Below the pieces are notes generated by a model that saw only the letters and a program-made list of their open reading frames with translations, was not told the origin of the DNA and did no database searches. The position numbers and the translations under genes were made by a program. From Phycicoccus elongatus Lp2 (GTDB taxonomy: Bacteria > Actinomycetota > Actinomycetes > Actinomycetales > Dermatophilaceae), in the NCBI RefSeq assembly GCF_000367525.1, contig NZ_HF570956.1, positions 1,591,439 through 1,655,438 on the forward strand: a DNA stretch of 64,000 nucleotides, in the 5' to 3' direction. Shown in pieces: positions 25,021 to 26,984 of the stretch (position 1 is its first letter; the number at the start of each line of letters is the position of its first letter).

Positions 25021-25070
25021 TCGCGCGGCTGCCCGACCCACTCCGGCGTGTCGCAACGCCAATCCTTGTG

Positions 25071-25086
25071 TCGAACATTCGTTCGG
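25071..25086. promoter_or_regulatory. LexA (SOS) box upstream of recA
   Basis: TCGAACATTCGTTCGG matches the actinobacterial SOS box TCGAAC-N4-GTTCGA at 11 of 12 defined positions. It overlaps a possible promoter, TTGTGT (25066-25071) with TACCTT (25088-25093) at 16-base spacing, so bound LexA would block polymerase directly. Confidence 0.85.
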
Positions 25087-25153
25087 GTACCTTGTCCACA
25101 GGTGCCGACACCGAGGGTGTGTCGTCCACAGACCGACGGCAACTGCGGGCTGA

Positions 25154-25176
25154 CTGTCGGTGGCGGCTCCTAGCGT
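25154..25176 (+). promoter_or_regulatory. PafBC-type (RecA-NDp) damage promoter of recA
   Basis: TGTCGGTG (25155-25162), exactly eight bases, then TAGCGT (25171-25176) match the LexA-independent DNA-damage promoter of mycobacterial recA. It lies downstream of the LexA box, so recA has two separately controlled damage promoters. The leader from this promoter would be about 75 bases. Confidence 0.8.
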
Positions 25177-25258
25177 CTGACCAGACCTCGCGACGAGACC
25201 GACAGCGCGGGATGGTCGCCGGTGGACGCGACCCGATTCGACTCCGAAGGAGCAGGAC

Positions 25259-26326
25259 ATGGCAGCAGGACTCAGCGTCGTCAAGGCCCAGGGCGGCGAC
25301 AAGGACAAGTCGCTCAGCGCGGCTCTGGCCCAGATCGAGAAGCAGCACGGCAAGGGTGCCGTCATGCGCCTGGGCGACGACGTGCGCCCCCCGATCGAGG
25401 TCATCCCGACCGGCGCGATCGCCCTCGACGTCGCCTTGGGCATCGGTGGCCTGCCTCGCGGTCGGGTCGTGGAGATCTATGGCCCGGAGTCGTCGGGCAA
25501 GACGACCGTCGCGTTGCACGCAGTGGCCAATGCGCAGAAGGCCGGCGGCATCGCCGCCTTCATCGACGCCGAGCACGCGCTCGACCCGGAGTATGCCGCG
25601 AAGCTGGGCGTCGACATCGACAACCTGCTGGTCAGCCAGCCCGACACCGGTGAGCAGGCGCTCGAGATCGCGGACATGCTGATCCGCTCGGGTTCGATCG
25701 ACATCATCGTCATCGACTCGGTCGCTGCCCTCGTGCCGCGCGCCGAGATCGAGGGCGAGATGGGTGACAGCCACGTCGGTCTCCAGGCCCGCCTGATGAG
25801 CCAGGCGCTGCGCAAGATCACCGGCGCCCTCAACTCCACGGGCACGACGGCCATCTTCATCAACCAGCTCCGCGAGAAGATCGGGGTGATGTTCGGTTCA
25901 CCCGAGACCACCACGGGTGGCAAGGCGCTGAAGTTCTACGCCTCGGTCCGTCTCGACGTCCGACGTATCGAGACCCTCAAGGACGGCACCGACGCGGTCG
26001 GCAACCGCACCCGCGTCAAGGTGGTCAAGAACAAGGTGTCCCCGCCGTTCAAGCAGGCCGAGTTCGACATTCTCTACGGCCAGGGCATCTCCCGTGAGGG
26101 AGGCCTGATCGACATGGGCGTCGAGCACGGCTTCGTCCGCAAGGCCGGTGCTTGGTACACCTACGAGGGCGACCAGCTCGGGCAGGGCAAGGAGAACGCC
26201 CGCAACTTCCTCAAGGACAACCCGGATCTGGCCGACGAGCTGGAGAAGAAGATCAAGGACAAGCTGGGGGTCGGCGTCCGCAAGGAGGACGCGGAGCCGA
26301 TCGCGGACGTCCCGGTCGACTTCTGA
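25259..26326 (+). CDS. recA: Recombinase RecA
   Basis: RecA forms filaments on single-stranded DNA for recombination and triggers LexA cleavage. The 355-residue protein has [18 protein letters not shown], Walker A GPESSGKT, the [11 protein letters not shown] segment, Walker [16 protein letters not shown], loops L1/L2 around [16 protein letters not shown] and [18 protein letters not shown], and an acidic tail. No intein is present. AAGGAG (25247-25252) sets the ATG. Two damage-responsive promoters lie upstream and recX 16 bases downstream. Confidence 0.98.
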
Positions 26327-26342: not shown

Positions 26343-26984
26343 ATGCCGTTCTCGGACAGCCGCACTCCACCGCCCGCTTGGGCGGTGGAGTCCGGCACGG
26401 CAGCGTCGCAGGGGGCAGCCGTCATCTCGATGCGCACCCGGCGCCGGGTCGCCCCGCTCCCGGCCGATCCCGAGGGTGACCCGCGCACGCGCGGCCAGGA
26501 GCCCGATCCGCATGACTGGGCCCGCGAGATCGTGCTGCGGATGCTCACCGCGTCCCCGAAGACGCGCTCGCAGCTCGCCGAAGGACTGCGCCGCAAGGAC
26601 TGCCCCGACGATGTTGCGGCTGCCGTGCTGGATCGCCTCGAGGGTGTCGGCCTCATCGATGACGCCACCTTTGCCGCCGACTTCGTCCGTCGTGAGCAAT
26701 CAGCCAAAGGCCTGTCCGGTCGCGCCCTGGCCCAGCGACTGCGCGCCAAGGGGGTCGATGCGGACACGGCCCGCGACGCCCTCGAGGCCGTCGACCCGGT
26801 CCTGGAGGAGGACCAGGCGCGTGATCTCGTGGCTCGCCGGCTGCGCTCGATGGCCGGCCTTGACGCTGTCGTCCAGACCCGCCGCTTGGCGGGGATGCTC
26901 GCACGCAAGGGCTACGGCCCGGAGCTGTCGATGCGGGTCATCCGTGAGGCGCTCGCCGAGGCGCCGGAGCATCAACGCGACTGA
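26343..26984 (+). CDS. recX: Regulatory protein RecX
   Basis: RecX is a small helical protein that caps and inhibits RecA filaments. After an unusually long, Pro-rich N-terminal stretch of about 60 residues, the RecX domain is clear: IVLRMLTASPKTRSQLAEGL, DRLEGVGLIDDATFAADFVR, GRALAQRLRAKGVDADTAR and KGYGPELSMRVIREAL. The ATG at 26343 lies 16 bases after recA without a clear ribosome-binding site and overlaps a GTATGCCG octamer; a later start is possible. Co-transcription with recA is likely. Confidence 0.92.
   Translation: MPFSDSRTPPPAWAVESGTAASQGAAVISMRTRRRVAPLPADPEGDPRTRGQEPDPHDWAREIVLRMLTASPKTRSQLAEGLRRKDCPDDVAAAVLDRLEGVGLIDDATFAADFVRREQSAKGLSGRALAQRLRAKGVDADTARDALEAVDPVLEEDQARDLVARRLRSMAGLDAVVQTRRLAGMLARKGYGPELSMRVIREALAEAPEHQRD

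Follow-up and report, generated by a model that had tools for sequence, protein, structure and literature searches.

The control region of recA in Phycicoccus elongatus Lp2 is best read as the single point in the genome at which LexA, PafBC and a so far undescribed competence regulon come together. In the window, which is the whole 64,000-nucleotide stretch that was analysed, two YYRTCCACAG boxes with cores 30 nt apart lie between the LexA and PafBC switches of recA, and they were absent from an earlier sequence-only reading of this DNA. The same paired element recurs above controls, with a fixed promoter geometry, in this genome, its family and much of the class, and it probably serves as the shared regulatory site of a competence regulon to which recA belongs. 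We therefore favour, and consider likely, a two-promoter region in which LexA would act on the distal promoter (P2), and PafBC together with the paired competence boxes on the proximal one (P1). Its function as an activator site, its role in competence and the positions of the transcription starts are inferred from these patterns.

The recA control region and its damage-response promoters

The following features were mapped in the window, all on the forward strand.

25066-25093, +, predicted distal promoter P2, by eye: -35-like TTGTGT (25066-25071) and -10-like TACCTT (25088-25093), spacing 16
25071-25086, +, LexA (SOS) box TCGAACATTCGTTCGG, inside P2
25092-25102, +, box 1, TTGTCCACAGG, overlapping the end of the P2 -10 and the expected P2 start; TCCACA core at 25095-25100
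25116-25124, +, GGTGTGTCG, a genus-specific stretch just 5' of the box 2 core; each position kept in 10-11 of the 12 spacing-30 sites of this genome, counted on sites collected without requiring GGTGTGTCG
25122-25131, +, box 2, TCGTCCACAG; core at 25125-25130, its start 58 nt before the expected P1 start
25155-25162, +, PafBC -26-type element TGTCGGTG of proximal promoter P1, by sequence pattern
25171-25176, +, P1 -10, TAGCGT, 46 nt after the box 2 core start, as in comEA
25183, +, predicted P1 transcription start (A), placed 58 nt after box 2 and 7 nt after the -10, like the leaderless-looking targets
25259-26326, +, recA, matched in 58 of the 59 family genomes
26343-26984, +, downstream open reading frame, which from its position we take to be recX-like

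The near-perfect SOS box that the sequence-only reading had placed over a promoter was recovered as TCGAACATTCGTTCGG, one mismatch from TCGAACNNNNGTTCGA, between TTGTGT and TACCTT. Across the whole genome, the LexA pattern TCGAACNNNNGTTCG gave 12 matches, which correspond to seven places because palindromes were counted on both strands, compared with none in the reversed control. GAAC-N4-GTTC is present in 36 of the 57 family recA upstream sequences, and one LexA is encoded in the genome. An SOS box at the promoter and a lexA gene in the same genome suggest that recA is LexA/SOS-regulated.

TGTCGGTG-N8-TAGCGT (25155-25176), proposed earlier as a PafBC-type promoter downstream of the SOS box, stood far above chance. 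The pattern matched five times in the 64-kb window at up to one mismatch (0.38 expected), the recA match being the only exact one, while the exact pattern occurred 11 times in the whole 3.17-Mb genome versus once for its reversed form. Among the family recA upstream sequences (n = 57), the strict pattern was found in 49 and the relaxed TGTCRG-N10-TANNNT in all 57. The 11 sites lie upstream of uvrA, uvrB, sbcD, an RNase_H_2/PDDEXK (RecB-like/RNase H-like) gene, a SprT-like gene, recA, two DUF222 genes, an isochorismatase gene, a small gene of no assigned function and a gene without a Pfam hit. Leaving recA aside, the start codon falls 6-7 nt after the -10 in six of the ten targets (L007, L008, L009, L011, L014 and L015), so these promoters look leaderless, which supports a recA P1 start near 25183, about 7 nt after 25176. 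The earlier reading had named the lack of pafBC as a refutation of its claim and proposed looking for these genes beside the proteasome genes; pafB and pafC do adjoin dop and pup, as a WYL/WCX pair with HTH_PafC in one member, in a proteasome locus where prcA was recognised by eye. TGTCRGTG-N8-TANNNT above control before DNA-repair genes, and pafB-pafC at the Pup-proteasome genes, point to a PafBC regulon in this genome.

The LexA and PafBC half is ordinary and already known from mycobacteria. The dual damage response proposed for this lineage is thus well supported by sequence but incomplete, with a third input in the same 111 bases. TTGTCC was also considered as the -35 of a third, ordinary -35/-10 promoter and was rejected, no suitable -10 being seen by eye. 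Two observations touch on PafBC control elsewhere. The SprT-like protease gene with a PafBC-type site (L005:1556-2278) suggests damage control of a protein-DNA crosslink-type protease. Streptomyces recA loci carry a PafBC-type motif with A (TGTCAGTG, TGTCAGTGGCAG), a variant that bears on the doubt over S. venezuelae, for which the accessible text of PMC9380542 reports that the M. smegmatis motif appeared, on an initial search, not to be conserved.

The paired boxes and their targets in the genome

Within the 81 positions leading to the PafBC motif, the 57 family recA upstream sequences hold 90 copies of TCCACA, versus 11 in the other 140,385 bases, and the offsets of TCCACA from that motif were concentrated at about -59 (38 sequences; box 1) and about -30 (51 sequences; box 2). 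In the genome itself, pairs of TCCACA 9-39 nt apart numbered 25 versus 8 on reversed controls, and nine of the genomic pairs end in GTGTGTCGTCCACA, all with spacing 30. The stricter TCCACAG-N15-GTGTGTCGTCCACAG (up to three mismatches) gave 13 sites, and none on either reversed control. It is very improbable, given the family enrichment, the 13 sites and a geometry common to comEA, that recA has LexA and PafBC promoters only, as in mycobacteria, with the boxes arising by chance or as left-over sequence, even though both promoters were confirmed and the Mycobacterium recA loci are without boxes; chance or left-over origin of the boxes was rejected on the two counts and the fixed geometry. A second PafBC half-site was likewise rejected as their identity. 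Boxes are present in the 100 nt upstream of only one of the 11 PafBC sites and missing from the other ten, and TGTCRG is found in none of the 16 other box promoters, leaving recA as the only overlap.

The strict sites lie before comEA (followed by comEC), yraN (followed by comM and dprA), ssb, a second SSB gene, recA, a cpaE-like gene (followed by tadA and T2SSF), a DUF4244 pilin gene, M23 peptidase, DUF4192 and AbiEi_4 genes, and three genes of no clear type; looser pairs were found upstream of comF, two SAF/CpaB genes, AbiEi-type genes and dnaB. Pfam assigned the targets to ComEA (HHH_3 and SLBB), UPF0102/YraN, SSB (twice), DUF4244, M23, DUF4192, AbiEi_4, SAF and phosphoribosyltransferase/ComF, with a MinD/ParA-like match below the family cut-off for the CpaE target, and their operon partners to ComM, DprA, ComEC, T2SSE/TadA and T2SSF. 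Genes for uptake, pilus, SSB or recombination stand behind seven of the 13 strict sites, and one cis element is thus common to DNA-uptake, pilus and recombination genes, as in a competence regulon. Several targets without a known competence link (L205, L218, DUF4192, AbiEi-type and Uma2-like) count against the favoured explanation; at the same time, the element suggests AbiEi-type, DUF4192, Uma2-like and M23 genes as unstudied members of the regulon.

Two side observations concern these targets. AbiEi-type or MTES_1575-like genes, partly recognised by eye, recur behind paired boxes in several genera (L233, L220 and L207; relatives L238, L242, L244, L264 and L309) and may be new competence genes. 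The dnaB frame (L202:3-1433, near 361 kb), with paired TCCACA upstream, runs into intein-like sequence after the Walker region.

Promoter geometry and recurrence in relatives

The distance from the box 2 core to the start codon is 57-60 nt in 12 of the 15 targets of this genome. Among 69 sites of relatives, any ATG fell at offsets 56-60 in 28 instances, compared with 3.4 expected; because the picking of relatives' proteins had favoured an ATG at 56-61 nt, distances were taken only from this frame-free ATG count and from the own-target measurement. At the same 69 sites, TANNNT was found 17 times at offsets 44-46 and seven times over the rest of the 20-149 range. The comEA promoter reads box 2, 40 nt, TAGCGT, 6 nt, ATG, and recA reads box 2, 40 nt, TAGCGT; recA P1 thus shares the build of a competence promoter and holds a PafBC element within it. 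These constraints also bear on the proposal that the boxes act on replication, by titrating DnaA or timing initiation, instead of on transcription. Although the boxes are of DnaA type and dnaB has a pair upstream, strand, start-codon distance and -10 are fixed and the targets are functionally coherent, and we regard such a role as highly unlikely. Targets and geometry also led us to reject the idea that the pairs are solely oriC-type clusters.

Box pairs numbered 335 in 58 family genomes versus 40 in reversed controls, with real counts above control in 47 genomes and below it in four. The proteins downstream matched SSB (6), RecA (5), DUF4244 (5), ComEA-type (5), UPF0102 (3), M23 (3), SAF (2), ComF-type (2) and MinD-type (2) families, for 56 of 66 picked proteins scanned (L236 twice, L246, L253, L254, L256 three times, L326 and L331 were left out) and with loci L296-L335 hand-chosen among the family pair matches listed. 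In one relative (G033:C152:3038-3134), three tandem box pairs share the middle part CTCGAGTGGCC, which is replaced by different sequences in other genera.

For the class as a whole, the recA -10 is preceded at 43-48 nt by a box in 23 of 42 loci from a named collection and in 13 of 27 loci from an unnamed sample. The former (L088-L129) are 42 of 80 loci, including metagenome bins, two of which carry labels of other or uncertain phyla, the remaining 38 being mostly outside the class; the latter are 27 of 30, since L030, L169 and L171 (this genome and two family genomes) had been counted with the family. The 19 named loci without a box at that place relative to a recognised P1, including Mycobacterium, Gordonia and Cellulomonas, weigh against the favoured explanation; two of them (L120 and L123) have boxes and no recognised P1. 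Among comEA-type loci, 13 of 30 combine a box with TANNNT 42-46 nt and a start codon 54-59 nt downstream of it. Here, PF12836 top hits in frames of about 800-960 aa, presumably Tex-like, were set aside and lower-scoring hits in shorter frames were taken as ComEA, the identity being backed by further Pfam domains for the comEA of this genome only.

Eight genomes of the 30-locus comEA set carry the pair at both recA and comEA, and in seven of them the two spacings agree within 1 nt (comEA/recA 30/30, 28/28, 18/19, 19/19, 17/18, 19/19 and 19/19; this genome, 30/30). Two spacings predominate, about 19 and about 30, which are one helical turn apart. Box 1 lies 20-26 nt from the LexA CGAAC in 11 of 13 measurable class loci, L102 and L111 differing. 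Other results count against the favoured explanation: Actinomyces has spacing 38 at comEA versus 28 at recA, and Streptomyces comEA shows a single box with the start codon at the right distance in two of four loci and TANNNT in none of the four. No box was found at either recA or comEA in the examined loci of Mycobacterium, Cellulomonas and Planctomonas. Class-wide pair enrichment was modest (1990 versus 1199) and absent in some families, the reversed control exceeding the real count in family f23 (12 real versus 66 control); this count is a weak test because of its wide spacing range. Separately, RecA matches were split or cut, mostly near residue 215, in frames of about 700-1200 aa, as with inteins, in G004, G020, G023, G030, G031, G066, G081, G090, G126, G127, G150, G159 and G186.

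Candidate binders and comparison with known systems

Within the favoured explanation, the recA control region would be a stack of two promoters with three inputs (LexA, PafBC and competence-type boxes), an arrangement in which we have reasonable confidence. P2 would be repressed by LexA, and P1 would combine the PafBC -26 element and -10 with paired boxes at about -58 and -88. Most probably, a sequence-specific activator occupies both boxes in adjacent positions on the same face of the DNA and contacts or recruits RNA polymerase at weak, mostly leaderless promoters that have a -10 and no good -35. In this way, recA would be turned on both together with the DNA-uptake genes and in response to DNA damage. 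Because box 1 extends over the region where transcription from the LexA promoter would start (window 25088-25102), the same protein may shut P2 while opening P1. To our knowledge, this organism is not known to be transformable, which counts against this explanation, as does a middle part that differs between genera and that DnaA alone does not explain.

Among candidate binders we rank DnaA first, followed by the HTH_17 protein whose gene adjoins SAF/CpaB and lastly by some other protein. DnaA heads the list because the agreement of the boxes with the actinobacterial DnaA box extends to the degenerate positions, YYRTCCACA being the DnaA box consensus. One version of the favoured explanation, possible but which we hold only tentatively, takes the boxes as DnaA boxes from which DnaA directly activates recA P1 and the competence genes, so that uptake and recombination would be coupled to the state of replication. 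DnaA would then, across much of the class Actinomycetes, switch on DNA uptake, the Tad pilus, SSB, DprA and several uncharacterised genes through pairs of helically phased boxes whose nearer member lies 58 nt ahead of the start, and recA P1 would be a node reading replication state (DnaA), single-stranded DNA (PafBC) and RecA filaments (LexA). YYR precedes box 2 in 49 of 55 hand-picked sites from four family genomes (about 1 in 8 expected) but in only 8 of 17 sites of genome G102, these and the middle-part counts coming from listed matches of five genomes, mostly with spacing 29-30 or 19-20. The same 9-mers, mostly also followed by G, occur at the organism's own oriC, where they match at degenerate positions too, and at its dnaA promoter, and most Streptomyces recA and comEA boxes are TTATCCACA. 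Against DnaA stand the genus-specific middle motif, the 57-60 nt geometry, which is unusual for this protein, and a literature search, lying mostly outside subscription journals, that found no DnaA link to actinobacterial competence genes.

Another version, which we consider improbable, is that the boxes are the operator of a small HTH_17 (excisionase/BldC-like) protein that represses or activates the regulon. Such a gene (L388:3015-3224) is divergent from SAF/CpaB with paired boxes between them (L209), and paired boxes also precede an HTH_17 gene in G035 (L302). According to the accessible text of PMC8467076, nearly all com-overexpressing mutants of Micrococcus luteus are changed in or near the like-placed Mlut_14660/14650, but the M. 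luteus gene may be essential and binding to com promoters is not reported for it there; orthology with that pair, moreover, rests on domain and neighbourhood.

A fixed-geometry cis element would yield lists of candidate competence genes in many genomes, a probe for the regulator and a simple promoter-mutation test. It would thereby give a handle on competence control in actinobacteria, and it adds a third input to a textbook DNA-damage gene. The same literature search found no cis element for actinobacterial competence genes and no DnaA boxes at recA.

Compared with known systems, the region resembles mycobacterial recA, where P1/P2 (accessible text of PMC11804915) and the RecA-NDp motif (accessible text of PMC6789036) have been described, in combining a LexA promoter with a PafBC/RecA-NDp-type promoter at one gene and in having pafBC in the proteasome locus; it differs in that the examined Mycobacterium recA loci lack paired boxes between the promoters. 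DnaA boxes, and DnaA as a transcription factor, share the 9-mer YYRTCCACA, a type also found at the organism's own oriC, whereas the element described here has fixed promoter geometry, a genus-specific middle part and competence targets. M. luteus competence, compared by its description rather than its sequence, involves the same machinery classes (Flp/Tad pilus and comEA/EC) and an HTH_17-SAF divergent pair like Mlut_14660/14650; as far as the accessible text of PMC8467076 goes, no cis element is reported, and recA, comF and dprA are words absent from its main text. A 2026 paper (PMC12849477, accessible text) calls the M. luteus competence regulon currently unknown. Competence regulators described in Bacillota and gammaproteobacteria include ComK, SigX and CRP-Sxy (PMC8467076, accessible text). 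The regulons of Bacillota and gammaproteobacteria differ from the present one in element, geometry and lineage, and are like it in that a single shared cis element stands before com, ssb, dprA and pilus genes. In Bacillota, recA is also under the shared competence element.
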